A stretch of 26,245 nt of DNA from a virus: positions 1 through 26,245 of the IMG/VR virus record IMGVR_UViG_3300020195_001307; one strand, 5' to 3'. Below the pieces are notes generated by a model. The model did no database searches and was not told where the DNA came from. It worked only from the letters and a program-made list of their open reading frames with translations. The position numbers were made by a program, and so were the translations under genes. Positions 3,870 through 26,245 of this stretch are shown here, piece after piece; within the stretch, counting starts at the first letter, position 1, and every line of letters begins with the position of its first letter.

Positions 3870-5183
3870 TTATTGGAGATTAAGTTGTCTGTCTCTCAGG
3901 CTAAATTTTGAGTTCACACCTTTGAGGATTTTGAGTCGTTCTTCCGGTGTTCCAAATTGGAGAACGTGGAGGAGATATTCTTTGAGCATCTCAGTGTGTG
4001 TTTCAGTATATTCTCTTGGGTTTTGGTCACCTGTATTATGAGGAGTAATTTCAACTTGAGGTATATATTCACTAATTACGTTTGCTTTGAAATGCTGTAA
4101 TCGTTTCACTTCTACTTCGAACTCCTGCATCAGGTATGAAGTATTCAGTTTGATTTTTGGGAGATAACCGATAAGCTGTTTAATTAACTCTTGCTCGGTA
4201 ATGTAGGGTTCAGGGCAGTCGTATTTTTTAATCCGATTACAATGATAATAAATGTGAGAGTTGATGATATTTGCTTTTGTTCTTCGATATTTAAGTTCAG
4301 CAGTCACACTTCCACCGCATGATCCACAGATACATATTTTCTTGAACGGAAACAATTGCTTGTTCCATTGCCTCGGTGCAACTTGAAGTTGAATCTGAAC
4401 TCTTTCAAATAATGCTTTTGTGATGAGCGGTTCATATGTCCCTTTGTACCATATGTTTCCGTACTGAAATTCGCCGTAGTAAAAGGCATTTTGGAGAGCA
4501 ACATAGATTTTACTTAGAGGCATCTTGCACCCGCTTTTTGTAGTGAATCCAATATCGTCTAACCATTTCTTTACCATTCGCCCCGAGAAGCCTTGATCCG
4601 CAACTTTATGAAATATCTGTTTAATGATTGGAGCTCGTTCAGGATCAAGTTCAACCGTTGAGATGCGATTTACCTTCAACACATTCCGATAGCCAATTGG
4701 TGCAACTCCTGGTCTGATCCCAATCTGGCATTTGTTCCGTAGTCCTCGTTTAACATTAACCCCTCGATTATCATTCTCCAGCTTTGCTTGTGAGCAGAGA
4801 ATCATGAGAAGGAATTTTTCATTGGGATTGTCAGTAAAAGATTGGGAGTAGGTTTTGATATGAGTCAGCTTTCCCTGATCCATTAAATCAACGATTCGTC
4901 CCAAGTCTCCAGCGTTTCGAGATAATCGATCAGGAGCCCATGTGAGGATGCTGTTGTATCTTCCTTCGATAACTCCACGGAGCAGATTGTTAAACTCTGG
5001 TCGCTGTCCTGATTCTTTGGCTGAATGGCTTTCTGTAATTGTTTCGGTAATATCGAGTCTCTCTCGCTTAGCAAGAAGTTGCATTTCTCTGAGCTGACCA
5101 TCAATGGACATTGCTTGTCGCTCATCCGATTCGCTCGATTTGCGGGCGTATAAGCAGTATTTTAGCCTGGTATTATCCTTCAT
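3870..5183 (-). CDS. Large serine recombinase (site-specific integrase/resolvase family)
   Basis: A site-specific recombinase that cuts and rejoins DNA through a serine-phosphate link. Of its 437 residues, the N-terminal resolvase domain spans about 7-150. The catalytic serine is in YARKSSES (probably S16) and the domain contains APDRLSRN. A Recombinase domain follows, with PIGYRN and the FYYGEFQYG region. Then comes a zinc-ribbon with CICGSCGG and a later pair of cysteines, and a short C-terminal tail. It ends sooner after the zinc ribbon than many large serine integrases, but I see no frameshift. The open frame extends to 5237 and overlaps the RT stop. I chose ATG 5183 because the family normally starts just before the YxRKS strand. 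It is co-oriented with, and directly downstream of, the DGR reverse transcriptase, so it may mobilise this region. Confidence 0.9.
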   Translation of the reverse strand: MKDNTRLKYCLYARKSSESDERQAMSIDGQLREMQLLAKRERLDITETITESHSAKESGQRPEFNNLLRGVIEGRYNSILTWAPDRLSRNAGDLGRIVDLMDQGKLTHIKTYSQSFTDNPNEKFLLMILCSQAKLENDNRGVNVKRGLRNKCQIGIRPGVAPIGYRNVLKVNRISTVELDPERAPIIKQIFHKVADQGFSGRMVKKWLDDIGFTTKSGCKMPLSKIYVALQNAFYYGEFQYGNIWYKGTYEPLITKALFERVQIQLQVAPRQWNKQLFPFKKICICGSCGGSVTAELKYRRTKANIINSHIYYHCNRIKKYDCPEPYITEQELIKQLIGYLPKIKLNTSYLMQEFEVEVKRLQHFKANVISEYIPQVEITPHNTGDQNPREYTETHTEMLKEYLLHVLQFGTPEERLKILKGVNSKFSLRDRQLNLQ

Positions 5184-5225
5184 CAGGACACAAGGTACCG
5201 GGAAGGGGCGAGGAAGTCCAGATGC
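5181..5225 (-). repeat. Conserved 45-nt sequence A before the recombinase start (partner of B at 10239-10289)
   Basis: Read on the minus strand, A and B share GCATCT at the left end, TGGACTTCC in the middle and ACCTTGTGTC at the right. Both run directly into an ATG with no spacer change. Block spacing differs by 6 nt and several positions vary. The position next to a serine recombinase is where attachment sites often lie, but a shared leader or shared coding segment is also possible. Confidence 0.5.
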
Positions 5226-5233
5226 AAGAAAAT

Positions 5234-6304
5234 TCATTTTTGCAGCTCTAGTTGGTGTATTACCCTTGTTAATTTATATGTATTTCCATGTTTTAACATT
5301 CCAAGATATGAAGCCACTGATTCTTTTGTTCGTTTATGTTTTAAGTTTCTAAACATTCTCCGTTTGGTTGTTGTCCTTAATACCCGATGATAGGGGAAAT
5401 GAATCCACCCTAAGAAATCAATTCCGGATGTAATTGGTTTGATAAAGAGTTTTTTTGGGTGCAAGGTTAACTTTAATTTTGTCTCCAAATAATCAGAAAT
5501 TTTTGGGACGAGATTTTCTAAATATTGCCTGTCTTGGTGCAAGATTACAAAATCGTCTGCATAACGAATGTAGAAATGTACTTTTAGCTCCCGTTTCATA
5601 AATTGATCAAATTCGTTCATATATACATTGATGAGAAGCTGACTTGTCACATTACCAAGTGGAAGGCCAATATCAGTTGCGTTCCCTGTGTAGAAGCTAT
5701 CTATAATCTGATTTAGCAACCAAAGTATATTCTTATCCGAAATGTGATTGCGTAAAATTTCTTTCAAAACGCCATGATCTATATTCGCAAAAAACTTTTG
5801 TATATCGCCCTTTAGTACCCAAGCTGCTTGTGTATTGTTTTGTGAAGCTTTTCTTCCAAAGGCCTGAAATCTCCTCATCGCGCGATGGGTTCCTTTGTCA
5901 TTTCTACATGAGTAGGAATCGTAAATAAACTTTTTATCAAAATATGGATATAGAACTTTATAGACAGCATGGTGAATAATCCTATCTCGCACTTTTGCTT
6001 TATGAATGTCTCGGGGTTTTGGGTCATTAATCTTAAAGGCGTAATATAATCCATGTCTGTAGCTTTTTGTTTCAAGTTCTTTTTGAAGACTCAATATATT
6101 GTCCATAAAATGGATTGAAAACTTATTTATATCTTTCCGTTTCCTTTTACCACATAAAAATTCCTGCCATGACAGCAACAGGTTCTCAAGAGAGATGATA
6201 CTATTGTAGGTACTATGACATCTCCCATTTCTGGCCTGAGTAATACTTCGATTCTGAATCGAATCAAAGATGGATATTTGATTTGGATGAATATTGTTCC
6301 GCAT
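5234..6304 (-). CDS. DGR reverse transcriptase
   Basis: The RNA-dependent DNA polymerase of a diversity-generating retroelement. It copies the TR RNA with frequent errors at adenines. Visible motifs, numbered from 6304: GDIQKFFANID at about 166-176 (catalytic Asp), IGLPLGNVTSQ at about 212-222 (the SQ ending is the DGR signature, unlike the SP of group II introns), YADD at 248-251, and a FLGW block near 295. There is no maturase or endonuclease domain. The conserved N-terminus starts near ISLENLL (residue 37), and no ATG, GTG or TTG lies between it and the ATG at 6304. The gene therefore either starts at 6304, overlapping the first 90 bp of the opposite-strand avd gene, or uses a rare start. 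TR and target lie upstream on the same strand; the recombinase follows immediately. Confidence 0.93.
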   Translation of the reverse strand: MRNNIHPNQISIFDSIQNRSITQARNGRCHSTYNSIISLENLLLSWQEFLCGKRKRKDINKFSIHFMDNILSLQKELETKSYRHGLYYAFKINDPKPRDIHKAKVRDRIIHHAVYKVLYPYFDKKFIYDSYSCRNDKGTHRAMRRFQAFGRKASQNNTQAAWVLKGDIQKFFANIDHGVLKEILRNHISDKNILWLLNQIIDSFYTGNATDIGLPLGNVTSQLLINVYMNEFDQFMKRELKVHFYIRYADDFVILHQDRQYLENLVPKISDYLETKLKLTLHPKKLFIKPITSGIDFLGWIHFPYHRVLRTTTKRRMFRNLKHKRTKESVASYLGMLKHGNTYKLTRVIHQLELQK

Positions 6305-6598
6305 ATTCCTAAAACAGCTCGTTATACGATCGGTACTCGTATAGAAAATAAATTTCTTAACCTTTTAGAACTTGCGTATGCGGCTTACTTTATTGAGAAA
6401 GAGAAGAAGGAAGAAAAAATATCAATGTGTATTTTTGAGTTGGATATTCTTAAATTTCTTATTTCCACTTCATGGGAGGCAAAATGTATATCTCATAAGC
6501 AATATGAGGAAATCGCAGTTAATCTTGATGAGGTTGGTAAGATGTTGTGGGGTTGGAAGAAAAGTTTGGACCCAGACAAGAAAAACCGCGCTAGGTAA
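6215..6598 (+). CDS. avd: Avd-like DGR accessory variability determinant (four-helix bundle)
   Basis: A small basic helical protein that forms a ring-shaped oligomer and binds RT and TR RNA in known DGRs, where it is required for mutagenic cDNA synthesis. Its 127 residues show the family hallmarks. These are a tryptophan followed by PHIPKTARYTIG near residues 28-40, ENKFLNLLELAYAA in helix 2, a helix with LDILKFLI, and a C-terminal EVGKMLWGWKKS. It lies between RT and TR, but on the opposite strand to both. Its first 90 bp overlap the RT 5' end and its stop lies 17 bp from TR. A weak Shine-Dalgarno, AGG in TAGGTACT, precedes ATG 6215. The opposite orientation means it needs its own promoter. 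Confidence 0.85.
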   Translation: MTSPISGLSNTSILNRIKDGYLIWMNIVPHIPKTARYTIGTRIENKFLNLLELAYAAYFIEKEKKEEKISMCIFELDILKFLISTSWEAKCISHKQYEEIAVNLDEVGKMLWGWKKSLDPDKKNRAR

Positions 6599-6614
6599 GC
6601 GCGGAAAAGATTAC

Positions 6615-6750
6615 ACTTTCGGAGACTGAAGACAAACTCGTTGTTAGGATTCCACTTGTTGTCAGGTTTCGCCCAATTGTCGTTCAACCACAGACCATCC
6701 TCATTCCGTTCCAGATTGAAGACATTAGGATTGCCATCCGAGTCGGTATT
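6615..6750 (-). repeat. DGR template repeat (TR)
   Basis: A 136-bp non-coding copy of the target gene 3' end, aligned without gaps to VR at a constant offset of 487. There are 22 mismatches, and 20 of them are T on the plus strand of TR, that is, adenine in the transcribed TR RNA. The two exceptions are 6633 (G to A in coding sense) and 6727. In the target frame TR would read 11 asparagine AAY codons, 10 of which are changed in VR. AAY codons are the DGR hallmark because adenine changes in them never give a stop. Similarity ends sharply below 6615 and becomes unclear above 6750. Confidence 0.93.
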
Positions 6751-6781
6751 GTATGACTTGCCATCTTATGCCACTGCTTGC

Positions 6782-6901
6782 TTAGTCACCAAATAATGAA
6801 GAAGCAGAGCTGTATTTTATTTGTGATATAAAATCACTGAGCAAATCACACCAAGTTTCTTCTTTTTTATGACATCGTGTATATCGCTCCGCAAAAAGCA
6901 T
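6782..6901 (-). CDS. Possible small protein (39 aa) within the TR transcript
   Basis: ATG 6899-6901 to TAA 6782-6784 encodes 39 residues. They include FAERYTRCHKKEETWCDLL and end SSLFGD, which is mixed and plausible protein composition. The frame stays open upstream to a TAG about eight codons before the ATG. It ends 32 bp before TR and would lie on the same RNA if the promoter near 6984 drives TR. There is no obvious Shine-Dalgarno. It could equally be a chance frame inside the structured 5' part of the TR RNA. Confidence 0.3.
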   Translation of the reverse strand: MLFAERYTRCHKKEETWCDLLSDFISQIKYSSASSLFGD

Positions 6902-6983
6902 GAAGCCGTCTGCGCTCTCAATCTACATATGCCAGAAAGGTCTCAAAAAACCGTAGCCTTTTGATATAACCTATCTAAATCAT

Positions 6984-7011
6984 AGTATAGCAAAAAAAAT
7001 TCGGCCGACAA
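6984..7011 (-). promoter_or_regulatory. Putative promoter of the TR RNA
   Basis: On the minus strand TATACT (6984-6989) is preceded, 16 bp upstream, by TTGTCG (6006-style -35 position at 7006-7011). Transcription would start near 6977, about 230 nt before TR, and continue through TR. It would make TR RNA independently of the target gene. Between 6750 and 7081 nothing else is seen except the possible 39-aa frame. Confidence 0.4.
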
Positions 7012-7081
7012 AAAAAGAACAAAGTGTCAAACAATCAAAGGGTCAATATTTCAAAAGATTTTTCAAAAGTGAAGCAAGGGT

Positions 7082-9271
7082 CTAAGGTTTTTGAGTTTCA
7101 GACTTGCGGAGACTGAAGATAAACTCGTCGTTAGGACTCCACAGGCTGCCAGGTAACGCCCAAAAGTCGTACAACCACAGACCATCCTCATCCCGCTCCA
7201 GAATGAAGACAGACGGATCGCCATCCGAGCCGGTAATTTGCTTCATACCAACACAAACCCATTTTCCCATTTGTTGATCAGTATTTTGCAGTCTATATTG
7301 TGGGCCAACTTCAGCAGGGCAAAAATATAATCCCAATTCTTGTGCTCTTTCATATATTTGGTCAGTCGTTGGATCACCAGAAAGTCCCATTTGGTTTAGT
7401 GTTAGTATTACTGTATCCAATATTTGAGCTACGGGGAGTGTAGTAAAATCTGGATTATTCATCATATTCTGAGCACGAGAATTTACATGTCCAGCTTGTT
7501 CCAGTTCACTCTGAAGTTGCTCTTTTGTCTTTCCGCCAATCTCAATACCTTGCCTTCGTATTTTCCCTTCTGGAAAAGAGGTATAGATATGTTCGACATT
7601 CGCCTCAGTTAGTTTGTCAAAGATTCCAGGTACAAGAGGTCCAACATAGGCTCTTGTATCAGGTTTTACTTCTGATACGTTGTGAGCAATTTGTGAAGAT
7701 TCACAAGCAAAAACAATCGGCATGTCTTGCTCGGGATTTCTTGCCACCAGCAGTTTTTTAACTTCATTGGTAAATGCTTCAGGAACTGGTCTTGTAACAC
7801 CATACATAAAATCAAGTGGCTCTCTATCTAAACGGTGAGCCCCAAGGTCAAATCCATAAATAGTTTGAATATCTTCAGCAAGATTTCTTTGGTTTCGTAA
7901 CTCCTTAATTCGCGGATCTTCTTTGTAACCGAAATATTTGATAGGTCTATCAATGGCGTAGAGAAATTTAAGGTCATCACTAGTCAATGGTTTATTCTCA
8001 CCCATTTTACGATCAATAACAGTCAGAAGTTTTGTATCTGCATCTGTCGCAAAAAACGCCTCTCCGCCGGGAAGATATTTTAATTTATCTCCAATGACAG
8101 GTGATGCTTTTATATAGTCATCAAGATTCTCTTCCCACTCCATGCCACGGACTTCCGTAACGCGATCTTCTTCAGATACGATGACCACACGAGGATTTGC
8201 TTGGTTGCCATCTTTATCACGAGTATAGTAAATATGTAATTCTGCGCCATTATCTAAATAGTTTCCTTGTGCAGTTTCTGATCCTGCAATACACCAACCT
8301 GTCCCTTTTCCCACAAGCGTATCTGCTACACCCTTTCCCGTATGACCTTTTTGTTTTGAAAAAGTAACCCAGCCGCAACTATTTCCTCCTGTTATTTGCA
8401 TTTCCTCGTCTGTAATAGGAGGAATATACTCCTGTACCCAACCATATGCTGCGCGAAAGTCTTTTTTTTCAAGAGCGTCTAAAAAAGATGGTCTGACCCC
8501 TTCGGGAATATCTAGATTATACCCCCAATAAATAGGGTTGTTGTCTCCTTGGGCCTTATAGGCTGAGGCGATGAACTTCAAACCGTTTTCATTTACTTCA
8601 GGAAACATTTTAACCGAACGTTGTTTGCCACTCGGACGCTTTGGAAATCTGCCTAACTCTACTACTTTCCCATCTGGGCCTTTTTCGGTCTTTTTATATC
8701 GTTCAAGTCCGAGCATCCCCGCAAATGCCCAGTATTTAAGATAATCTGGTAAGTAAGAAGATTTTACAGATACAAGATAATCAATCCACTCCTCAATGCT
8801 TCCTTCTTGATCCTCTTTCGCTTGAGCAAGATGTTCGTGTTTGATTATTAACATTTCTTCTTCGGTTAAATCCTGCCGATCGCCAGCCCTGCCTTGATTA
8901 CGAACAAATTCAGTCTGTCTCGTCCAGTATTGTTCCAAATGTGCGTATTCCTGGCTGCTATTTGTATTTTCTTGCTCACCTTCACTCTCTGGGTTTTTTG
9001 GTTTTGGTAGTTCAATGACATACTTTTCAAACAGTATTCTTTTAAGTCTTGAAACAGCCTTGACTCTGGCATCTCCTTCAGGGCTATAAATAGTTTTTCT
9101 TAATCTATCAAGGTAGTTTTGAATTCTTGCGCCTGGGTCACGAGGAACTGCTTTTTCAGTCAATCTCATTGTACGGTTCGCCGCATGTGTGACTTCTTTG
9201 CTTCCAGAAAGTTTGGAATATCGCTCACTCAAAAATACTTCCCCTAGATTATCTGGATTCCCTTCATTCAT
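7082..9271 (-). CDS. DGR target (variable) protein, C-terminal ligand-binding-type domain
   Basis: The protein whose C-terminus is diversified by the DGR. It has 729 residues and no signal peptide or membrane segment. The first 300 residues are charged and helical, with an acidic low-complexity stretch near 95-110. A middle region has GTGWCIAGSETAQGNYL and ELHIYYTRD, a pattern I associate with large CPR DGR target proteins. The C-terminal domain starts near LGLYFCPAEVGP and ends in the variable region (679-724), with the usual scaffold DGLWLxDxW and FxFSLRK kept constant. A C-type-lectin-like fold is likely from the family but was not tested. A TATAAT box on the minus strand ends 6 nt before ATG 9271, so the mRNA is probably leaderless. 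The ligand is unknown. Confidence 0.88.
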   Translation of the reverse strand: MNEGNPDNLGEVFLSERYSKLSGSKEVTHAANRTMRLTEKAVPRDPGARIQNYLDRLRKTIYSPEGDARVKAVSRLKRILFEKYVIELPKPKNPESEGEQENTNSSQEYAHLEQYWTRQTEFVRNQGRAGDRQDLTEEEMLIIKHEHLAQAKEDQEGSIEEWIDYLVSVKSSYLPDYLKYWAFAGMLGLERYKKTEKGPDGKVVELGRFPKRPSGKQRSVKMFPEVNENGLKFIASAYKAQGDNNPIYWGYNLDIPEGVRPSFLDALEKKDFRAAYGWVQEYIPPITDEEMQITGGNSCGWVTFSKQKGHTGKGVADTLVGKGTGWCIAGSETAQGNYLDNGAELHIYYTRDKDGNQANPRVVIVSEEDRVTEVRGMEWEENLDDYIKASPVIGDKLKYLPGGEAFFATDADTKLLTVIDRKMGENKPLTSDDLKFLYAIDRPIKYFGYKEDPRIKELRNQRNLAEDIQTIYGFDLGAHRLDREPLDFMYGVTRPVPEAFTNEVKKLLVARNPEQDMPIVFACESSQIAHNVSEVKPDTRAYVGPLVPGIFDKLTEANVEHIYTSFPEGKIRRQGIEIGGKTKEQLQSELEQAGHVNSRAQNMMNNPDFTTLPVAQILDTVILTLNQMGLSGDPTTDQIYERAQELGLYFCPAEVGPQYRLQNTDQQMGKWVCVGMKQITGSDGDPSVFILERDEDGLWLYDFWALPGSLWSPNDEFIFSLRKSETQKP
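7102..7237 (-). repeat. DGR variable repeat (VR), last 46 or so codons of the target gene
   Basis: This is the acceptor of mutagenised TR cDNA, covering residues about 679-724. Relative to TR the protein carries N679I, D681G, N685D, N687S, N690I, N694D, N701Y, N703F, K706L, D708G, N709S, K710L, N712S and N715D. All of these come from adenine changes. V718I comes from a G-to-A change near the 3' end. The stop codon lies 18 bp beyond the repeat. The identity run GAGACTGAAGA next to the 3' end is the likely place of cDNA priming. Confidence 0.93.
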
Positions 9272-10079: not shown

Positions 10080-10241
10080 TTATTTACTCCCAAATTTTTC
10101 AATTAAACGTCTTAGTTTTTTAGTTGTGAAGAAAAGCCGATCAATATAGATCTTGTCGTGAGTGATAAGGTAGCGATAAAAATATCGTTCGCATCTGCTG
10201 AGGAGTTTCACGGCCTTTTCCTTTTGGATATTTCTTTCCAT
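10080..10241 (-). CDS. Possible small basic protein (53 aa)
   Basis: ATG 10239-10241 to TAA 10080-10082 gives 53 residues rich in Lys, Arg, Tyr and Phe, including RCERYFYRYLITHDKIYIDR. It is likely helical and basic. I do not recognise it. It starts directly after sequence B (10239-10289), exactly as the serine recombinase starts directly after sequence A. There is no Shine-Dalgarno. It may be a real small gene, the remnant of a larger one, or a leftover at a recombination site. Confidence 0.4.
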   Translation of the reverse strand: MERNIQKEKAVKLLSRCERYFYRYLITHDKIYIDRLFFTTKKLRRLIEKFGSK

Positions 10242-10289
10242 CAAGACACAAGGTGCCGCAAAGAATCTGGAAGTCCAGGCTGAAGATGC
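10239..10289 (-). repeat. Conserved 51-nt sequence B (partner of A at 5181-5225)
   Basis: On the minus strand it reads GCATCT, then a 6-nt insertion relative to A, TGGACTTCC, a variable middle, and CACCTTGTGTC, running into ATG. It has the same orientation as A and lies 5.06 kb away. The interval between them holds RT, Avd, TR and target. See the finding on A and B. Confidence 0.5.
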
Positions 10290-11046: not shown

Positions 11047-12575
11047 TACTTCATATCAAGCATACCGGCAGTGTATGGTTTCGATATATCTCGCCATTCT
11101 CCTGTAATTTTGTCATATGAGTAATGAGGTTTATCCTCAGTTTTAATTCTAAATGGATAATATGGTTGATCGCTTTCTATAATTTTGCTTAATCCAATTG
11201 TAAATGCATCGGCCAAATCATCATGTTTTGTTGAGTGAATGTTAAGTAATTGGTTTATGAGAGTTTCTCCTACAAATTCAGGAATGAATACTTTGCCTAA
11301 CTGTACATATGGAGAAACGAGTCGTAATCGTGAGGCTTTATCAAGATGACCAACTGATACTGGCTCAGCCATGAGTTTTTCTACAAGAAATAATTGTTGT
11401 ACTACTGCGTCTTGGTATCCAACACTCTCTACAAAAATTCTAGGTATAATACCAAATGTTTCTTTTAATTCGGCAGCTAATTTCTTAATTGCTTCAACTG
11501 TTTCTGGAAAGTCCAATTGTTTATTTACAATATTCGGTAGCACATAAGCCTGAAGTGTTTTATCGTATCCTGTTACGTACATCGGAACCATAGCTGTAAA
11601 ATCTCGTCCATCACCTTTTTTAATGGCAAGATCAATTGCAATTAAAATTATTCTTGGCCTCGGCACTTCTCTTGTTGGAAGAGTAAAGTTGTACTTTTTA
11701 ATCCATGCTCTCTGTATAACTTGTTGGTCATCGGGGACAATTTGTAGGAGATATTCTCGTTCAAAAGAACCAATATCAATTGTTTCACGCCTAAGCTCGT
11801 CAATTTTCTCCTGTGTAAACTTTTGAGGCCAGAGAATAACACCGTCCTCATCAACAAGCGGAAATTGAATAAATACGCTATTTTGTCCAACGTCATTATC
11901 GTACTCCTTCAGCTTCATCATTAATGAGTCTTCGTGGAGTAGATTCCCAACCACCACAATTCTTGTTCCAATGTCTCCAAGCGGTTTAATTTCACTGGTA
12001 AACCAACGATAAATACTTTGTCTGTTATCGAGTGTCTTTACTGAGTTAATATCCTCTACATCATCAAGAATAATTAAATCCGGTCTGTATGGGCCGTGCC
12101 TTAATCCTCTGATACTTTCTCCAGTAGATACAACCGTAATTCTTGCTCCGTATCTTGTTAACTCGATTGAATTTGCACTCCATTCACCTTTACCATCGGT
12201 AAATGGTCCAAAATCTTTTTTTAGAAGCTCGTTTGATTCCAACTCTCTTCTTATATTGCTCAAGATTTGCTTACACTGGCTTTGTGTTTGGCTCACGATA
12301 ACAACAAACTTTTTCTGTTGCTCACCAGTAATTGCCCAGATTGGGTATGAGTTACTTATAATAGTTGTTTTACCTGAACTACGAAAAGCCATAATGAATA
12401 CTTCTGGACAATTACTTTTCTGTGTAAGATTAAAAATCGTTTTTTGAAAGTCAGCAGTTGGATATTTTACATACTCACTAAAATACATATGAAAGAAGAG
12501 AATATGGCTTTGCCGTGCTGATTCTCTCCGAACAGACTGATCTGCAAATAATTGGTCTAATATAGTGTTATTCAT
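11043..12575 (-). CDS. Phage-type terminase large subunit, complete copy (TerL)
   Basis: The DNA-packaging motor ATPase and nuclease of tailed phages. Its 510 residues show the N-terminal ATPase with Walker A FRSSGKTT (64-71), Walker B LIILDD (167-172, with E174 as candidate catalytic Glu), and coupling motif VVVGNLLHEDS. The C-terminal RNase H-like nuclease has acidic positions D315 (IAIDLAIKK), E383 (FVESVG) and D452/D453 (HDDLADA). All key residues are present. Its start overlaps the TerS gene by 8 bp, so it is translationally coupled. It is the last gene of a minus-strand operon. No portal, protease or capsid gene follows; host-like genes do. Residues 1-368 recur in the truncated second copy. 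Confidence 0.9.
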   Translation of the reverse strand: MNNTILDQLFADQSVRRESARQSHILFFHMYFSEYVKYPTADFQKTIFNLTQKSNCPEVFIMAFRSSGKTTIISNSYPIWAITGEQQKKFVVIVSQTQSQCKQILSNIRRELESNELLKKDFGPFTDGKGEWSANSIELTRYGARITVVSTGESIRGLRHGPYRPDLIILDDVEDINSVKTLDNRQSIYRWFTSEIKPLGDIGTRIVVVGNLLHEDSLMMKLKEYDNDVGQNSVFIQFPLVDEDGVILWPQKFTQEKIDELRRETIDIGSFEREYLLQIVPDDQQVIQRAWIKKYNFTLPTREVPRPRIILIAIDLAIKKGDGRDFTAMVPMYVTGYDKTLQAYVLPNIVNKQLDFPETVEAIKKLAAELKETFGIIPRIFVESVGYQDAVVQQLFLVEKLMAEPVSVGHLDKASRLRLVSPYVQLGKVFIPEFVGETLINQLLNIHSTKHDDLADAFTIGLSKIIESDQPYYPFRIKTEDKPHYSYDKITGEWRDISKPYTAGMLDMKY

Positions 12576-13005
12576 TTTCTATTTTTTGCACCTCTGGTTT
12601 AATGATTCCTGCCATGAGCAAAGCTTTCCTGACAGAGTCTTCTTGTTCTGCTGTTAGCATCGGATCTTTCATTTGACTTGAAGTAATCTCGACCTTAGTA
12701 AGGTACGCAGGGTGATGGTGTTTTAGCCAAAATATTATTGCTGTCATGTTTTTATCCTTAATGGCACTCATTAGTTGTGACTCTGCCATATCGTTTACTA
12801 AAAGGCTTCCATCGAGTAATGCCTGGTCACTTTGTTGAGTAAATTCCGCATCTTCTTTTCTCCAGCGATAGTAGGTGGAGCGGCCAACACCGCATTTCTC
12901 GCAGGCTACTTGGACGATTGGAGTTTTCTTCAGTTGCTCGACCAGCAGATCCTGCTCAACCTTTATACGATCTCTGACTGTAATTTGGTTATCTTTGTTT
13001 TTCAT
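12568..13005 (-). CDS. Terminase small subunit-like DNA-binding protein (TerS), copy 1
   Basis: The 145 residues have an N-terminal helix-turn-helix, TPIVQVACEKCGVGRSTYYRW, of the kind used by small terminase subunits and Tn3-like HTH proteins. A helical middle part with a conserved IIFWLKHHHPAYL, common in phage TerS-like proteins, and a charged tail follow. The role would be to recognise packaging-site DNA and load TerL. It overlaps TerL by 8 bp and the upstream methyltransferase by 4 bp, so all three are coupled. The start ATG 13005 fits these overlaps. Confidence 0.75.
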   Translation of the reverse strand: MKNKDNQITVRDRIKVEQDLLVEQLKKTPIVQVACEKCGVGRSTYYRWRKEDAEFTQQSDQALLDGSLLVNDMAESQLMSAIKDKNMTAIIFWLKHHHPAYLTKVEITSSQMKDPMLTAEQEDSVRKALLMAGIIKPEVQKIENE

Positions 13006-13745
13006 AGTTTTTTAGCTTTTTTGTTGGTAACTTTTTCAAAACGATCAATGATCACTTGGCAGTATTCTTGATCAAGCTCTATCCCCAAACATCTGCGTTT
13101 GGTCTGCTCACAAGCCATCAAAGTAGATCCTGATCCCAGAAAAGGGTCATATACCCAATCATCGGTTTTTGAGCTGTTCAAGATGAGGTTTCGAAGTAAT
13201 CCAACTGGTTTCATTGTTGGATGTAGTGGACTCTTGTTTGGCTTCGGGTAAAACAAAACACTTTTATCTTGTGATTTCTGGAATGCATGTCTGCCATACC
13301 AGCCGTACGCAATTAATTCATGTTGTGGAAGATAGTTGAGTCGTCCAAGTACAACATGATTTTTAACCCAGATAAGAAGCTGGGCAAACTTGAACCCTTC
13401 ATCAACTAGTCCTTCACGCATAGCGAAAAGCATCTTGTCAGAGTTAAAAAGATAATAGCTATTCTTTTCCGCCAGATACGGTTTCACTAAGTTAAGCCAC
13501 CCTTTGGTAAACGCTCTATATTCTTGGTCAGTCTGTTCGTGGTCATTGGCGATAATTTTCGACTTACTAATCTGATTAAAGTTGATCTTATTTTCTACGT
13601 ATCCAACACCGTAAGGCATATCAGTAAGGATTAGAGAGATTTTCCGATCACTTAGAAGTTTTCCCACCATTACTGGATCTAATGCATCACCGCAGACGAG
13701 ATAATGTGAGCCTAGTTCAAAAATGTCATTCTTTTGGATTAACAT
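13002..13745 (-). CDS. DNA methyltransferase, N4-cytosine/N6-adenine type, copy 1
   Basis: The 247 residues have catalytic motif IV, DMPY (42-45), near the N-terminus and the SAM-binding motif I, DPFLGSGST (200-208), near the C-terminus. This order fits the beta class. The middle includes HPTMKPVGLLRNLI, and a short region there may recognise the target. No restriction enzyme gene is beside it, so it is probably an orphan or a phage-protection enzyme. AAAGGAGG stands 6 nt before the start, inside the end of the upstream gene. DMPY instead of the more usual DPPY is a tolerated variant. Confidence 0.88.
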   Translation of the reverse strand: MLIQKNDIFELGSHYLVCGDALDPVMVGKLLSDRKISLILTDMPYGVGYVENKINFNQISKSKIIANDHEQTDQEYRAFTKGWLNLVKPYLAEKNSYYLFNSDKMLFAMREGLVDEGFKFAQLLIWVKNHVVLGRLNYLPQHELIAYGWYGRHAFQKSQDKSVLFYPKPNKSPLHPTMKPVGLLRNLILNSSKTDDWVYDPFLGSGSTLMACEQTKRRCLGIELDQEYCQVIIDRFEKVTNKKAKKL

Positions 13746-15018
13746 ACGTTGCCTCCTTTCCAGTCAATTGCTGATATCGAGCAACGATTACATCGCAAAA
13801 AACAGGATCTATTTCGCATAAGAATGCTCGGCGTTTCAGTTGTTCCGCAGCTATGAGCTGACTTCCTGAACCACCAAAGAGATCAAGAATGATGTCGCCA
13901 GCCTTGGTGCAACGTCGAAAGGCTTTTTCGTATAACGTCGGGGGCTTTTGTGTTGGATGTTCATAGTCTTGCCCAGCAACACGCTTCGCTAGCCAAATAT
14001 CAAAAAGATCCATAATGTCGTCAGTTAATCGGTTACCCGTGCCAACTTCTTTATTCAGGACTTCATTGAGGTTATGAATGGGAGATAAGTAAGGATTACC
14101 CCTAGTTCCGTATATGCAGGGCTCAAAGCATTTATTGAAAGCTATCTGAGGAGTCATGTTGGCATTATTTTTGATCCACAAACACACACGCTTCTTATCG
14201 ATTCCGAGTTCGTTAAACAATTCTTGGAACATCCAAATATACGACTGATCACAAAAGGAGAAAACATGGCAGTCTGGATGTGTATGAGCTAAACCATTCT
14301 GAAACACAGTTTTGAGAAATGCTCGGTATTCGTTATCTGGTTTTTTATCGTTTACTTTTTTACTCCCATACGTGCCTTTATTACCAACGCCTTTGTTGTA
14401 GTTGAGATCTATATTGTAAATAGGGTCAAAATGCAGAATGTCGGCTTTATCTGAGCCCATAAGTCTTGCGACGACTAGCGGATCATTGTTATCGCCACAA
14501 ATGATTCGATGAGAGTTAAATTCTCCAAGGTAAATGAGGTCTCCTGATTTTGTTCTTGGAGTTTTTATTTTCGCTGCTTCTTTTTCAGCATCGAAGTCAT
14601 CATCATCGATTCCCAGTGCATCATCAAAAATATGAGTGAAGTCAAGATTATCAAAGCCAGATTCCAGAAGCAATTCGATATCAAAGTTTTTTAGAAGTTC
14701 ATAATCCCAATCTCCAGATACTCGATTTAAGGTTAAATTTAGCCGTTTCTCTTTTTCAACATCACTGATATTGATGAAGTTTACAGGTACTTTTTTATAT
14801 CCTAAATCTTTTGCAATCTTGAGCCTAAAATGTCCAGCTATAACAGTTCCATACCGCGACTTATTGCTGTTTGCAAGGATTGGTATAAGAAAACCATTAT
14901 CCTTAATACTTTTTGTAAGGTCGCTAATTGATTTCTCGCTCCAAAGGCGAGGATTGTAGGTGGCTGGAATTAAATCAGCGATTGGTACTTCAACTGTTTG
15001 AATTGATATGTTTTGCAT
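13726..15018 (-). CDS. ParB-like domain fused to DNA methyltransferase, copy 1
   Basis: Of the 430 residues, about 8-100 form a ParB/Srx-type domain (ADLIPATYNPR, IKDNGFLIPI, VIAGHFRLKIAKDLG). An acidic linker with a run of Asp at 138-143 follows. The rest is a methyltransferase with DPIY at 198-201 and LDLFGGSGSQ near 378. It ends overlapping the second methyltransferase by 20 bp. ParB-methyltransferase fusions next to terminase genes are common in phages and prophages, where they are thought to modify phage DNA. The role of the ParB part is not known. A GATAAT box 6 nt before ATG 15018 may be an internal leaderless promoter. Confidence 0.88.
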   Translation of the reverse strand: MQNISIQTVEVPIADLIPATYNPRLWSEKSISDLTKSIKDNGFLIPILANSNKSRYGTVIAGHFRLKIAKDLGYKKVPVNFINISDVEKEKRLNLTLNRVSGDWDYELLKNFDIELLLESGFDNLDFTHIFDDALGIDDDDFDAEKEAAKIKTPRTKSGDLIYLGEFNSHRIICGDNNDPLVVARLMGSDKADILHFDPIYNIDLNYNKGVGNKGTYGSKKVNDKKPDNEYRAFLKTVFQNGLAHTHPDCHVFSFCDQSYIWMFQELFNELGIDKKRVCLWIKNNANMTPQIAFNKCFEPCIYGTRGNPYLSPIHNLNEVLNKEVGTGNRLTDDIMDLFDIWLAKRVAGQDYEHPTQKPPTLYEKAFRRCTKAGDIILDLFGGSGSQLIAAEQLKRRAFLCEIDPVFCDVIVARYQQLTGKEATYVNPKE

Positions 15019-15078
15019 ACCAATATTATCTCAAGGAGTATTTGTTTGGTCACGGTCGAGGTATTCCAAGAAGTTGAG

Positions 15079-15879
15079 TCAATTTATTGGGATAAGACTT
15101 ACCTCATGCAGTGATGGGAGTTGAAAGTTATTAATTATTGAATAATATTTTCTTCGGACTGTACCTGGCTTACTCTTTAACTTTTCAGCGACAATCTCGA
15201 AGATGGGATTAATATTAAATGAATTGGGCTTTGAGATTTTTTCCTCAATAAGATATTTCTCAATAGTTAAATATACTTCTAAGCTATCTGGCTTCGGAGC
15301 TTTTCGACTTTTTTCATTTCCTTCAATTTTAAATCCTTTAATTCTTGAAAGAGTTTGGTAACCTTCCTCAGCCTGTTTTTTTAAATTTGCCACCTCTTTA
15401 TTTGTTAATTCAGGAGTGTACTTTATGTAAACTCCTGTTTCAGTAATTGGATCTCTCGGAGATGTGACAAGTAAAACTTTTGAACTTCCAGGAAATGACA
15501 TGCTTGTATGACCCAATACGTATACTTTGAGTAATTCGAAATTCAGATTAAAATTGTGGAATTTTTCAATTGAGTCATATATTGGTTCGAATAGCTTCTG
15601 CCGAATGACGAAATCTAATCCAAAATATTCTTCCATCTGTCTCGTTACTGATTTCGTTCCACCTTTTGATTTGTTGCGTAATGTATCTGCCAGTTGTTGC
15701 ATATTCTTCCGCTCCCATAAAATAATCTCAGTAGCTGATCCAATGCCGCTCGAGGGGAGTACAAGCTTTTTTCTGAGGTGCTGGATGAGAACTGCAAAAA
15801 AGAAGCTATTTACCAACAGATAGTTGCGCCAGTCCTCATGGGATTTTGTTTTTAAAATGTATTTCTCGAGTTCTGCCAT
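15079..15879 (-). CDS. Hypothetical protein, 266 aa, copy 1
   Basis: I do not recognise this protein. It is soluble, with no signal peptide or membrane segment long enough to trust. The first third is helical (NYLLVNSFFFAVLIQHLRKK). A Lys-rich region in the second half (KIEGNEKSRKAPKP) precedes a C-terminal stretch, IFEIVAEKLKSKPGTVRRKYYSIINN, that looks like a helix-turn-helix with a conserved GTVRRKYY step. It may bind DNA. It lies between the HEPN-like gene and the ParB-methyltransferase in the same operon, with 60 bp before the latter. Confidence 0.6.
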   Translation of the reverse strand: MAELEKYILKTKSHEDWRNYLLVNSFFFAVLIQHLRKKLVLPSSGIGSATEIILWERKNMQQLADTLRNKSKGGTKSVTRQMEEYFGLDFVIRQKLFEPIYDSIEKFHNFNLNFELLKVYVLGHTSMSFPGSSKVLLVTSPRDPITETGVYIKYTPELTNKEVANLKKQAEEGYQTLSRIKGFKIEGNEKSRKAPKPDSLEVYLTIEKYLIEEKISKPNSFNINPIFEIVAEKLKSKPGTVRRKYYSIINNFQLPSLHEVSLIPIN

Positions 15880-15909
15880 ATAAAGTTCTTAACGTTATTG
15901 TGAATATTG

Positions 15910-16935
15910 TTATATCCACCCAAATAGCTGAAATGTCCCGGTAAATTCGGGAGCTTTATATTCATCAGTCATACAACCAGATTCTTTCAACAAATAAACA
16001 ATGTATGCATAAAACATAATATCCGCGACAATGGTATGTGTAATCCAATCCGAATAAATCAGCCCACTCATAGGAATATTATCTCCATGTACAACTGAAT
16101 TTCTCAGTTTATAGAAATCCCAGCCCCACCAAGCGGCAACACTTCTTGTCTGACTTTTCTCGTTATTCTTTCCATACCGCCTAATAGCTTTAATAAAATT
16201 GTCTCGGACGACTGTTTGATCAATTTTATCCGAGAGAAAGCCAGCTTTATCTCTAACATTAGGGATATCAAAAATAATTTCAAATGCAGTCGCCATCATA
16301 ACAGCTCTAAAGAGTGGAGAGATTGACCCATTTTCTAGATGGGCTAGTCGAAACCATTCGCTAGATCGTAATAATCTATTCTTAAACTCTTCGTGTTCTT
16401 GAAGAGTAAGAAGCTTATTAATTGCTTCAAGCACATGCTTGTTTAGATTTTTGAAAAACCCACCAGTAGACCAAGGTTCCTGAAAGTGAATTTCATCTAA
16501 AGTCCATACACCGCTCGTCATACTTCCAGATTTAACAGCAATATCTTCAGTTCCAGGTATAAAGTTCTGAGAAACCATGTCAAAGATATCGCTACTTGGA
16601 GGGCCAATACTGCTGTTCCTGTTTGCCAAAGCGATCCTTGATTGTTCGCCGATACATAGGAAGCACAAGATATTACGGGCAAAGTTCAATTCCTGATACT
16701 CTTCGGTGGTTAATGGTTCAAAGTAGTTCTTATCTTTGTATGAAGCAATGCTGATCGTTTTTACAGGTTTCTGGTGTTTATCGACGTAACACTTTACGTA
16801 CTTATCCAAATACGTCTTAGTGTCACCGTCACTTATGACTGAGGTATCATATTTCCAAAAAATAGCATTGCCAATCTGAATATCTGCAATTTCTAGCCAG
16901 GGAAGCAAGGAAATTTGTTTATAGGATATACTCAT
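15910..16935 (-). CDS. HEPN/Apea-like protein, copy 1
   Basis: The first gene of the operon, 341 residues. The C-terminal half is helical and carries RNSVVHG with R278 and H283, matching the R-x4-H motif of HEPN domains. Many of these are RNases in toxin, defence or abortive systems. A preceding helix with FRAVMMATAFEIIF fits the Apea-like group. The N-terminal 150 residues contain CFLCIG and no motif I know. The start is supported by AGGAAGG 2 nt upstream and a TATAAT box at 16945-16950. Whether it cleaves RNA is inference. No paired antitoxin such as an MNT nucleotidyltransferase is beside it. Confidence 0.6.
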   Translation of the reverse strand: MSISYKQISLLPWLEIADIQIGNAIFWKYDTSVISDGDTKTYLDKYVKCYVDKHQKPVKTISIASYKDKNYFEPLTTEEYQELNFARNILCFLCIGEQSRIALANRNSSIGPPSSDIFDMVSQNFIPGTEDIAVKSGSMTSGVWTLDEIHFQEPWSTGGFFKNLNKHVLEAINKLLTLQEHEEFKNRLLRSSEWFRLAHLENGSISPLFRAVMMATAFEIIFDIPNVRDKAGFLSDKIDQTVVRDNFIKAIRRYGKNNEKSQTRSVAAWWGWDFYKLRNSVVHGDNIPMSGLIYSDWITHTIVADIMFYAYIVYLLKESGCMTDEYKAPEFTGTFQLFGWI

Positions 16936-16944
16936 ACCTTCCTA

Positions 16945-16950
16945 ATTATA
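16945..16950 (-). promoter_or_regulatory. -10 box of the HEPN-to-TerL operon, copy 1
   Basis: TATAAT on the minus strand stands 9 nt before ATG 16935, with AGGAAGG between. Transcription would start within the ribosome site, giving a very short leader. The same element is present at 26062-26067 in copy 2. The -35 region matches poorly. Confidence 0.45.
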
Positions 16951-17009
16951 TCGTATTCAGAATAATGGCTGGAAGCTATAAATATATCAAACAATATCAC
17001 CTTGTTCTA

Positions 17010-17128
17010 AGACACTCCTTTTTTATAGTGTCTCATTTGTCTCATTTTTGATACAATTAGCCTGGAGTTGCCTTCTGGAATGAGACAGTGTTATAAGGAC
17101 AGTTGGGTTCCAGACCTAGGTGCTCCGC
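17010..17128 (+). promoter_or_regulatory. Control region with inverted repeats before the Nudix gene
   Basis: AGACACT (17010-17016) and AGTGTCT (17027-17033) form a 7-bp inverted repeat. TGTCTCAT occurs at 17029-17036 and 17038-17045, with an inverted copy at 17080-17087. TACAAT near 17052 could be a -10 box. Further on, CTGGAA (17075-17080) pairs with TTCCAG (17108-17113) and GGAG (17064-17067) with CTCC (17123-17126). The pattern suggests a regulated promoter with a folded leader. I recognise no known riboswitch. It is repeated at the end of the window. Confidence 0.4.
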
Positions 17129-20490: not shown

Positions 20491-21692
20491 TGTATCAAAC
20501 TATATAGATATTTACATAGGATTTCATTCATTACAAGCTCAGCCTGAGCAGGCAGAAGAACTTCCAATGCAGGAGTTAAGCCTTGTTTGGCAGCTAATTT
20601 CTTAATTGCTTCAACTGTTTCTGGAAAGTCCAATTGTTTATTTACAATATTCGGTAGCACATAAGCCTGAAGTGTTTTATCGTATCCTGTTACGTACATC
20701 GGAACCATAGCTGTAAAATCTCGTCCATCACCTTTTTTAATGGCAAGATCAATTGCAATTAAAATTATTCTTGGCCTCGGCACTTCTCTTGTTGGAAGAG
20801 TAAAGTTGTACTTTTTAATCCATGCTCTCTGTATAACTTGTTGGTCATCGGGGACAATTTGTAGGAGATATTCTCGTTCAAAAGAACCAATATCAATTGT
20901 TTCACGCCTAAGCTCGTCAATTTTCTCCTGTGTAAACTTTTGAGGCCAGAGAATAACACCGTCCTCATCAACAAGCGGAAATTGAATAAATACGCTATTT
21001 TGTCCAACGTCATTATCGTACTCCTTCAGCTTCATCATTAATGAGTCTTCGTGGAGTAGATTCCCAACCACCACAATTCTTGTTCCAATGTCTCCAAGCG
21101 GTTTAATTTCACTGGTAAACCAACGATAAATACTTTGTCTGTTATCGAGTGTCTTTACTGAGTTAATATCCTCTACATCATCAAGAATAATTAAATCCGG
21201 TCTGTATGGGCCGTGCCTTAATCCTCTGATACTTTCTCCAGTAGATACAACCGTAATTCTTGCTCCGTATCTTGTTAACTCGATTGAATTTGCACTCCAT
21301 TCACCTTTACCATCGGTAAATGGTCCAAAATCTTTTTTTAGAAGCTCGTTTGATTCCAACTCTCTTCTTATATTGCTCAAGATTTGCTTACACTGGCTTT
21401 GTGTTTGGCTCACGATAACAACAAACTTTTTCTGTTGCTCACCAGTAATTGCCCAGATTGGGTATGAGTTACTTATAATAGTTGTTTTACCTGAACTACG
21501 AAAAGCCATAATGAATACTTCTGGACAATTACTTTTCTGTGTAAGATTAAAAATCGTTTTTTGAAAGTCAGCAGTTGGATATTTTACATACTCACTAAAA
21601 TACATATGAAAGAAGAGAATATGGCTTTGCCGTGCTGATTCTCTCCGAACAGACTGATCTGCAAATAATTGGTCTAATATAGTGTTATTCAT
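20487..21692 (-). pseudogene. Truncated terminase large subunit with foreign C-terminal tail (copy 2)
   Basis: Residues 1-368 are identical to the complete TerL, including the ATPase motifs and D315. The sequence then changes at 20588/20589 to a 33-residue tail beginning KQGLTPALEVLLPAQAEL and ending YSLIQ. The nuclease residues E383 and D452/D453 are lost, so nuclease activity should be absent. The frame stays open and the new stop overlaps the kinase start. The tail is probably the C-terminus of another gene that once stood upstream of the kinase. The junction is an in-frame rearrangement rather than a point mutation. Confidence 0.85.
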
Positions 21693-22122
21693 TTTCTATT
21701 TTTTGCACCTCTGGTTTAATGATTCCTGCCATGAGCAAAGCTTTCCTGACAGAGTCTTCTTGTTCTGCTGTTAGCATCGGATCTTTCATTTGACTTGAAG
21801 TAATCTCGACCTTAGTAAGGTACGCAGGGTGATGGTGTTTTAGCCAAAATATTATTGCTGTCATGTTTTTATCCTTAATGGCACTCATTAGTTGTGACTC
21901 TGCCATATCGTTTACTAAAAGGCTTCCATCGAGTAATGCCTGGTCACTTTGTTGAGTAAATTCCGCATCTTCTTTTCTCCAGCGATAGTAGGTGGAGCGG
22001 CCAACACCGCATTTCTCGCAGGCTACTTGGACGATTGGAGTTTTCTTCAGTTGCTCGACCAGCAGATCCTGCTCAACCTTTATACGATCTCTGACTGTAA
22101 TTTGGTTATCTTTGTTTTTCAT
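21685..22122 (-). CDS. Terminase small subunit-like protein, copy 2
   Basis: The 145 residues are identical to the protein at 12568-13005, with the same helix-turn-helix and the same overlaps with its neighbours. Here it precedes the truncated TerL, so it could still bind DNA but has no complete partner in this copy. Confidence 0.75.
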   Translation of the reverse strand: MKNKDNQITVRDRIKVEQDLLVEQLKKTPIVQVACEKCGVGRSTYYRWRKEDAEFTQQSDQALLDGSLLVNDMAESQLMSAIKDKNMTAIIFWLKHHHPAYLTKVEITSSQMKDPMLTAEQEDSVRKALLMAGIIKPEVQKIENE

Positions 22123-22862
22123 AGTTTTTTAGCTTTTTTGTTGGTAACTTTTTCAAAACGATCAATGATCACTTGGCAGTATTCTTGATCAAGCTCTATC
22201 CCCAAACATCTGCGTTTGGTCTGCTCACAAGCCATCAAAGTAGATCCTGATCCCAGAAAAGGGTCATATACCCAATCATCGGTTTTTGAGCTGTTCAAGA
22301 TGAGGTTTCGAAGTAATCCAACTGGTTTCATTGTTGGATGTAGTGGACTCTTGTTTGGCTTCGGGTAAAACAAAACACTTTTATCTTGTGATTTCTGGAA
22401 TGCATGTCTGCCATACCAGCCGTACGCAATTAATTCATGTTGTGGAAGATAGTTGAGTCGTCCAAGTACAACATGATTTTTAACCCAGATAAGAAGCTGG
22501 GCAAACTTGAACCCTTCATCAACTAGTCCTTCACGCATAGCGAAAAGCATCTTGTCAGAGTTAAAAAGATAATAGCTATTCTTTTCCGCCAGATACGGTT
22601 TCACTAAGTTAAGCCACCCTTTGGTAAACGCTCTATATTCTTGGTCAGTCTGTTCGTGGTCATTGGCGATAATTTTCGACTTACTAATCTGATTAAAGTT
22701 GATCTTATTTTCTACGTATCCAACACCGTAAGGCATATCAGTAAGGATTAGAGAGATTTTCCGATCACTTAGAAGTTTTCCCACCATTACTGGATCTAAT
22801 GCATCACCGCAGACGAGATAATGTGAGCCTAGTTCAAAAATGTCATTCTTTTGGATTAACAT
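22119..22862 (-). CDS. DNA methyltransferase, copy 2
   Basis: Identical in protein to 13002-13745, with DMPY and DPFLGSGST motifs intact and the AAAGGAGG ribosome site kept. It should be active if copy 1 is, doubling gene dosage. Confidence 0.88.
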   Translation of the reverse strand: MLIQKNDIFELGSHYLVCGDALDPVMVGKLLSDRKISLILTDMPYGVGYVENKINFNQISKSKIIANDHEQTDQEYRAFTKGWLNLVKPYLAEKNSYYLFNSDKMLFAMREGLVDEGFKFAQLLIWVKNHVVLGRLNYLPQHELIAYGWYGRHAFQKSQDKSVLFYPKPNKSPLHPTMKPVGLLRNLILNSSKTDDWVYDPFLGSGSTLMACEQTKRRCLGIELDQEYCQVIIDRFEKVTNKKAKKL

Positions 22863-24135
22863 ACGTTGCCTCCTTTCCAGTCAATTGCTGATATCGAGCA
22901 ACGATTACATCGCAAAAAACAGGATCTATTTCGCATAAGAATGCTCGGCGTTTCAGTTGTTCCGCAGCTATGAGCTGACTTCCTGAACCACCAAAGAGAT
23001 CAAGAATGATGTCGCCAGCCTTGGTGCAACGTCGAAAGGCTTTTTCGTATAACGTCGGGGGCTTTTGTGTTGGATGTTCATAGTCTTGCCCAGCAACACG
23101 CTTCGCTAGCCAAATATCAAAAAGATCCATAATGTCGTCAGTTAATCGGTTACCCGTGCCAACTTCTTTATTCAGGACTTCATTGAGGTTATGAATGGGA
23201 GATAAGTAAGGATTACCCCTAGTTCCGTATATGCAGGGCTCAAAGCATTTATTGAAAGCTATCTGAGGAGTCATGTTGGCATTATTTTTGATCCACAAAC
23301 ACACACGCTTCTTATCGATTCCGAGTTCGTTAAACAATTCTTGGAACATCCAAATATACGACTGATCACAAAAGGAGAAAACATGGCAGTCTGGATGTGT
23401 ATGAGCTAAACCATTCTGAAACACAGTTTTGAGAAATGCTCGGTATTCGTTATCTGGTTTTTTATCGTTTACTTTTTTACTCCCATACGTGCCTTTATTA
23501 CCAACGCCTTTGTTGTAGTTGAGATCTATATTGTAAATAGGGTCAAAATGCAGAATGTCGGCTTTATCTGAGCCCATAAGTCTTGCGACGACTAGCGGAT
23601 CATTGTTATCGCCACAAATGATTCGATGAGAGTTAAATTCTCCAAGGTAAATGAGGTCTCCTGATTTTGTTCTTGGAGTTTTTATTTTCGCTGCTTCTTT
23701 TTCAGCATCGAAGTCATCATCATCGATTCCCAGTGCATCATCAAAAATATGAGTGAAGTCAAGATTATCAAAGCCAGATTCCAGAAGCAATTCGATATCA
23801 AAGTTTTTTAGAAGTTCATAATCCCAATCTCCAGATACTCGATTTAAGGTTAAATTTAGCCGTTTCTCTTTTTCAACATCACTGATATTGATGAAGTTTA
23901 CAGGTACTTTTTTATATCCTAAATCTTTTGCAATCTTGAGCCTAAAATGTCCAGCTATAACAGTTCCATACCGCGACTTATTGCTGTTTGCAAGGATTGG
24001 TATAAGAAAACCATTATCCTTAATACTTTTTGTAAGGTCGCTAATTGATTTCTCGCTCCAAAGGCGAGGATTGTAGGTGGCTGGAATTAAATCAGCGATT
24101 GGTACTTCAACTGTTTGAATTGATATGTTTTGCAT
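22843..24135 (-). CDS. ParB-like domain fused to DNA methyltransferase, copy 2
   Basis: Identical in protein to 13726-15018: ParB-like part, acidic linker, DPIY and LDLFGGSGSQ all retained. The upstream GATAAT box is also retained. Confidence 0.88.
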   Translation of the reverse strand: MQNISIQTVEVPIADLIPATYNPRLWSEKSISDLTKSIKDNGFLIPILANSNKSRYGTVIAGHFRLKIAKDLGYKKVPVNFINISDVEKEKRLNLTLNRVSGDWDYELLKNFDIELLLESGFDNLDFTHIFDDALGIDDDDFDAEKEAAKIKTPRTKSGDLIYLGEFNSHRIICGDNNDPLVVARLMGSDKADILHFDPIYNIDLNYNKGVGNKGTYGSKKVNDKKPDNEYRAFLKTVFQNGLAHTHPDCHVFSFCDQSYIWMFQELFNELGIDKKRVCLWIKNNANMTPQIAFNKCFEPCIYGTRGNPYLSPIHNLNEVLNKEVGTGNRLTDDIMDLFDIWLAKRVAGQDYEHPTQKPPTLYEKAFRRCTKAGDIILDLFGGSGSQLIAAEQLKRRAFLCEIDPVFCDVIVARYQQLTGKEATYVNPKE

Positions 24136-24195
24136 ACCAATATTATCTCAAGGAGTATTTGTTTGGTCACGGTCGAGGTATTCCAAGAAGTTGAG

Positions 24196-24996: not shown

Positions 24997-25026
24997 ATAA
25001 AGTTCTTAACGTTATTGTGAATATTG

Positions 25027-26052: not shown

Positions 26053-26245
26053 ACCTTCCTAATTATATCGTATTCAGAATAATGGCTGGAAGCTATAAAT
26101 ATATCAAACAATATCACCTTGTTCTAAGACACTCCTTTTTTATAGTGTCTCATTTGTCTCATTTTTGATACAATTAGCCTGGAGTTGCCTTCTGGAATGA
26201 GACAGTGTTATAAGGACAGTTGGGTTCCAGACCTAGGTGCTCCGC

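Follow-up and report, generated by a model that had tools for sequence, protein, structure and literature searches.

Introduction

The diversity-generating retroelement (DGR) of Bordetella phage BPP-1 (mtd, avd, TR, brt) requires the accessory protein Avd for retrohoming (PMC12875486, PMC10053308). The avd gene of BPP-1 is encoded upstream of, and on one strand with, the template repeat (TR), and cDNA synthesis is primed by a folded spacer that separates TR from brt (PMC12875486). DGR clade 2, which is restricted to Patescibacteria, was reported to have a population-level activity below average, the highest activity being that of viral DGRs (Roux et al. 2021, PMC8144416). The main text of that paper makes no mention of avd, of orientation or of the term phase-variable. 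Contingency loci of Neisseria and Campylobacter, which are surface or effector genes, have an unstable tract inside the reading frame, mixed frame states and a tract type that varies between lineages (PMC5084427, PMC4965091).

We analysed the entire IMG/VR record IMGVR_UViG_3300020195_001307 (26,245 bp), called the window below. Its DGR is like that of BPP-1 in the TSQ-type reverse transcriptase (RT), the Avd protein, the TR, the variable repeat (VR) at the 3' end of the target gene and the adenine-specific change. Unlike BPP-1, it has an inverted avd in the interval between TR and RT, which makes any RNA made from the region downstream of TR antisense to this gene; in addition, a slippage tract is found in the avd of its relatives. 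With clade 2 it shares the host range and a target without recognisable domains; low activity is what has been reported for clade 2. Judging from host range, the group to which the window belongs (class A) may correspond to that clade. The relatives also share with contingency loci the unstable tract within a reading frame, the mixed frame states and the lineage-variable tract type, with the difference that the gene to be switched here would encode an accessory factor by which a targeted mutator works. Our overall reading, which we consider probable, is that of a Patescibacteria DGR with an inverted avd, in which the avd tract of the relatives would act as a slippage on/off switch and from which the window's copy would have lost the tract in frame.

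Results

Organization of the DGR in the window

The first-pass annotation had described positions 5234-9271 as a complete DGR, and each of its parts, namely an RT with TSQ and YADD, Avd, a TR and a target with its VR, was indeed found by profile matches and alignment. The features are as follows:

3870..5237, minus strand: large serine recombinase (integrase-like), a neighbour of the DGR (phrog_95 integrase, 8e-59), whose frame overlaps the RT stop
5234..6304, minus strand: DGR reverse transcriptase, 356 aa (RVT_1 1e-22, phrog_1423 2e-111)
6215..6598, plus strand, opposite to RT: Avd accessory protein, 127 aa (PF22296, NF033474, phrog_3206)
6215..6304: antisense overlap of 90 nt between the 5' ends of avd and RT, in codon-on-codon register
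6218..6247, plus strand: segment from the avd start to the avd core, the tract site in relatives; tract absent, avd in frame
6615..6751, minus strand: TR, whose 3' end and the stop codon of avd are 16 nt apart
7102..7238, minus strand: VR, at the 3' end of the target gene
7082..9271, minus strand: DGR target, 729 aa, with an N-terminal module and a C-terminal variable domain

The RT carries LGNVTSQ and YADD, in agreement with the DGR-type motifs [ILV]GxxxSQ and YxDD. Its sole in-frame ATG is at 6304, and ATG, GTG and TTG are absent between this position and the conserved core. Avd was recognised by bAvd PF22296 (1e-15, 58 bits for a cut-off of 40), by NF033474 DivGenRetAVD (3e-19) and by phrog_3206 (9e-21). 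Read along the minus strand, the order is target with the VR inside, TR, avd (on the plus strand) and RT. The avd gene, which has the opposite strand to RT, TR and target, thus sits between TR and RT, head-to-head with RT. An Rfam search of the window gave no match. The inversion of avd, its 90-nt overlap with RT, the conserved layout and the slippage tract of the relatives had no place in the first-pass annotation. The element is a DGR of the Patescibacteria type, a new member of a kind already known.

Adenine-specific differences between TR and VR

TR 6615-6751 and VR 7102-7238 align without gaps at an offset of 487, and 20 of their 22 differences fall at TR adenines, so that the gapless alignment and the count previously given for it were reproduced, here over 137 bp. 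Within a 134-bp core, TR adenines account for 19/21 differences (hypergeometric P 1.8e-10); in the reverse direction, just one of these 21 is at a VR adenine. Direct reading of the codons agreed with the earlier description that ten of eleven AAY codons are changed in VR, with a constant scaffold (Trp, Leu, Asp, Phe). A search across the whole record returned no further TR match. The 28 related loci, the window included, together have 553 TR/VR differences, of which 511 fall on a TR adenine, adenine making up 27% of the TR positions. The adenine-specific pair bears out the view that the element has worked in this lineage, and shows that mutagenic retrohoming occurred in the past of the window's lineage. 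In the window, the C-terminal domain of the target would be the part diversified, by error-prone reverse transcription of TR followed by retrohoming into VR.

The target protein

The target consists of an N-terminal module (aa ~1-475) and a C-terminal variable domain (aa ~506-729), with the VR at the 3' end of the gene as in DGRs. When it was compared with Pfam, NCBIfam, PHROG and PDB, no homologue was found, and neither domain is named by any database. An identity of the N-terminal module with PcfJ was considered and is unsupported. Structure models of the target (pLDDT 35 and 50) were too poor for a fold search, a C-type-lectin-like fold being at issue. The N-terminal module is common to DGR targets and to proteins ending in LRR-like repeats, which lie at loci with no RT nearby (L054, L055, L065-L067 and L077). 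The module is thus joined to a C-terminal domain that is of the repeat type in some proteins and hypervariable in others, which suggests a receptor-like build.

An inverted avd is conserved in a Patescibacteria group

The closest relative of the target is on a Roizmanbacteria contig, and target relatives were detected in 49/380 genomes of the phylum of this contig. RT relatives were present in 14/83 genomes of the order of the same contig and in 58 of the 374 genomes of the class of genome G181. The nearest RTs, 64-70% identical, all belong to genomes of one phylum, that of a Roizmanbacteria MAG. Across the window's RT group, the order VR(+)-TR(+)-avd(-)-RT(+) is uniform; in other Patescibacteria DGRs (RT ~37-40% identical) and in phage-type contigs, avd is on the RT strand or elsewhere. 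The DGR group with an inverted avd head-to-head with RT is specific to Patescibacteria, and the window belongs to it.

A simple sequence repeat in most relatives between avd start and core

Alignment of the junction in 13 close relatives revealed a (GA)n repeat between both start regions in most of them and G8 in one. At the same place, more distant members carry (GT)n, G9-10 or (CT)n, and three of them 5-mers. Altogether, 26 of 32 avd/RT junctions carry a repeat for 0.14 expected from the 24 comparable repeats counted in 800 kb of flanking DNA, poly-A/T being excluded. In an enlarged sample, a tract was found between the avd ATG and the core in 40/57 head-to-head cassettes versus 0/87 cassettes of other layouts (Fisher 2e-22). 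The units of these 40 tracts are dinucleotides in 26, mononucleotides in 11 and pentanucleotides in three, and correspond to poly-C, CT, CA, AG or a 5-mer. Among the 17 head-to-head cassettes without a tract in avd, L076 and L183 have (GA)19 or (AGAC)24 within RT, before GLPxGNLTSQ. A (CT)12 repeat is likewise within RT in L173, and in G296 the RT switches frame across G10. The tract was present in 37/46 genome-derived versus 3/11 virus-labelled cassettes (P 0.001), a comparison confounded by phylogeny as the tract-less virus-labelled members cluster on the tree. These cassettes with an inverted avd and a slippage tract are a newly recognised variant of DGR. The literature passages checked, a set to which subscription papers such as Paul 2017 and Wu 2018 do not belong, contain no tie of DGR RT or Avd to slippage tracts.

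On the RT tree, there are at least 17 changes of tract unit state and nine changes in tract presence. The window is nested in a clade of CT-tract members (SH-aLRT 95), so that its missing tract is a loss. Its element is a tract-less derivative in which avd and RT are both in frame, a state predicted to be fixed.

Frame state of avd with and without the tract

An avd was called in frame when any ATG sharing the frame of the avd core was followed by no stop before the tract, or before the core in tract-less cassettes; this rule is generous to the in-frame state. By this rule, avd is in frame in 17/17 tract-less versus 7/40 tract-bearing cassettes, the other 33 being out of frame (Fisher 2.5e-9); these calls rest on metagenome assemblies, where the tract length may be wrong, and on inferred avd start codons. 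An in-frame ATG, GTG or TTG between the tract and the avd core is absent in 38 of the 40, so translation must cross the tract. In the out-of-frame cassettes, the avd cores are still open and the RT is intact, and in 20 of them 354/382 TR/VR differences are at A, with a non-A change of 1.2%. These cassettes look recently active and not dead.

The congeners L275 (C8, in frame) and L072 (C9, out of frame from the homologous ATG) have flanks of equal length, so that their distances from avd ATG to core differ by one C; this is a comparison between species, the RTs being only ~75-77% identical, and L072 has a second, probably chance, in-frame ATG, for which it was scored in frame within the 7/40. 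Pattern and genus searches were made for strains that would differ in nothing but the length of the tract, and returned no near-identical strains. As in contingency loci, a putatively unstable tract is present at the 5' end of the coding region, in both frame states, among the window's relatives (40/57 head-to-head cassettes); the window's own copy has none.

Coupling of the avd and RT frames in the window's clade

In the clade of the window (13 loci), most RTs have no ATG after the tract, and a conserved ATG lies antisense to the His codon of the avd VPHIP motif. The RT frame offset from this conserved ATG equals the avd offset in 13/13 loci; it is zero in the window, L126 and L128 and non-zero in the others. 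Equal offsets follow from the codon-on-codon overlap, and the two conserved codon alignments are one arrangement, not 13 independent events. In this CT-tract clade, a single tract would thus set the avd frame and also determine whether the RT core is in frame with its sole conserved upstream ATG, and the two genes would switch jointly. In other lineages, an ATG that belongs to RT alone is present on the RT side of the tract, and switching would be confined to avd. Synonymous-site conservation is raised at the 5' ends of avd and RT in close relatives, in line with coding on both strands. Little synonymous constraint was seen at the TR-proximal (3') end of avd, the expected site of a BPP-1-like spacer RNA. 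An initial reading of the N-terminal 30 aa of the RT, antisense to the avd 5' end, as spurious gave way to the frame analysis, in which no other RT frame of the window begins with an ATG.

Discussion

The tract pattern is a signature of phase variation on a mutator, from which switching in a living population may be inferred. In the relatives, replication slippage in the tract would move avd into and out of frame and, since Avd is required for retrohoming, hypermutation would become a stochastic, heritable on/off state that is usually OFF. This reading concerns the relatives of the window, the window itself having no tract.

One could regard the tract as a neutral, low-complexity linker at the Avd N-terminus (Leu-Ser, His-Thr or Pro runs), with translation starting at a non-canonical codon after it. 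The tract does precede the conserved core, and N-terminal lengths vary. However, the usual start codons are missing between tract and core in nearly all tract-bearing members, all the tract-less members have an in-frame ATG, and selection on a linker should favour multiples of three, while the units measure 1, 2 and 5 nt and the majority of tracts leave avd out of frame. We find this explanation very unlikely. Hardly more credible, and if anything slightly less so, is that an out-of-frame avd reflects decay or mis-assembly and that the cassettes are dead. It is true that homopolymer lengths are fallible in metagenome assemblies and that the out-of-frame state prevails among tract-bearing cassettes, yet the OFF cassettes keep stop-free avd cores, an intact RT and near-pure adenine TR/VR changes; moreover, the enrichment of tracts is independent of their exact length, and di- and pentanucleotide tracts dominate.

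An effect of the tract without any frame switch has a somewhat better standing, although we still judge it improbable. Lying between two divergently transcribed genes, the tract could work on transcription through promoter spacing, or give a constant low level of Avd via transcriptional or ribosomal slippage, which is possible at poly-C and poly-G tracts. Against this, the tract of head-to-head members is inside the avd frame, downstream of the ATG, repeats with 4- and 5-mer units do not count among the classical slippage sites, and in some members the repeat is inside RT instead. About as doubtful is the view that the window, taken alone, is an ordinary DGR and nothing further: it is tract-less and its parts are standard, but its inverted avd, its antisense overlap and its nesting within a tract-bearing clade speak otherwise.

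We thus favour the slippage switch, and a wider picture seems rather likely to us, in which targeted hypermutation in Patescibacteria would be a bet-hedged heritable switch. The tract in avd, or in the avd/RT overlap in the window's clade, would keep most cells OFF and sometimes turn them ON, and lineages, perhaps more often virus-borne ones such as that of the window, would escape by in-frame loss of the tract. The inverted avd limits the possible sites of the cDNA-priming RNA, and the window offers a natural tract-less, in-frame comparison for its tract-bearing relatives. A slippage switch in avd would be in keeping with the low activity measured for DGRs of Patescibacteria and, if true, would mean that tract slippage, one genetic mutator, governs another, targeted hypermutation.

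Repeat tracts in the avd and RT genes

One genome, G181, carries six related RTs, and five of its cassettes were read (L060, L130, L131, L135 and L170). A simple sequence repeat between the avd start codon and the avd core, whose length would set avd in or out of frame, was present in all five, differing in length or unit from one cassette to another; four of the five were scored out of frame. Slippage tracts were also detected within the RT gene itself, at four related loci:

L076, 8094-8131: (GA)19
L173, 2595-2618: (CT)12
L183, 11313-11408: (AGAC)24
L277, 1930-1939: G10

The RT of the window begins with an N-terminal extension, MRNNIHPNQISIFD (6261-6304, minus strand), that is kept across 13 relatives with the consensus MRxNxHPxQISLFD, although this conservation is confounded because the extension lies antisense to conserved avd codons. 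Its QISLF stretch is similar to the beta-clamp-binding consensus.

Targets of the retroelement

At L263 (3468-4175, 4359-5084 and 5352-5540), a single TR serves two tandem target genes, and TR adenines account for 23 of the 26 differences for one gene and 26 of the 28 for the other. The N-terminal module of the window target (7847-9271) recurs fused to LRR-like repeats in L054, L055, L065, L066, L067 and L077, where no RT is found nearby. We read the LRR-fused and DGR-target forms as recognition domains swapped on one module.

Genomic setting and virus-labelled relatives

An imperfect repeat of about 41 nt (5181-5221 and 10239-10278; alignment score 21.5 versus at most 14 for shuffles) brackets the DGR and a DUF4352 gene of the window, and one copy ends at the codon with which the serine recombinase gene probably starts. 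This repeat is possibly a recombinase site, and the DGR segment may therefore be mobile. The window also contains an exact direct repeat of 5,657 bp (11472-17128 and 20589-26245, spaced by 9,117 bp), which arose either by tandem duplication or through a loop in the assembly; its second copy reaches the contig end and cuts short the terminase large subunit gene.

Head-to-head DGRs, with avd inverted between TR and RT, were found on five virus-labelled records (L004, L183, L190, L191 and L263), four of which carry a terminase 41-44% identical to that of the window. Both the paired methylases and the serine recombinase of the window are also present on L004, and L183 likewise has a serine recombinase. 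Altogether, these records suggest a family of Patescibacteria prophages with head-to-head DGRs.
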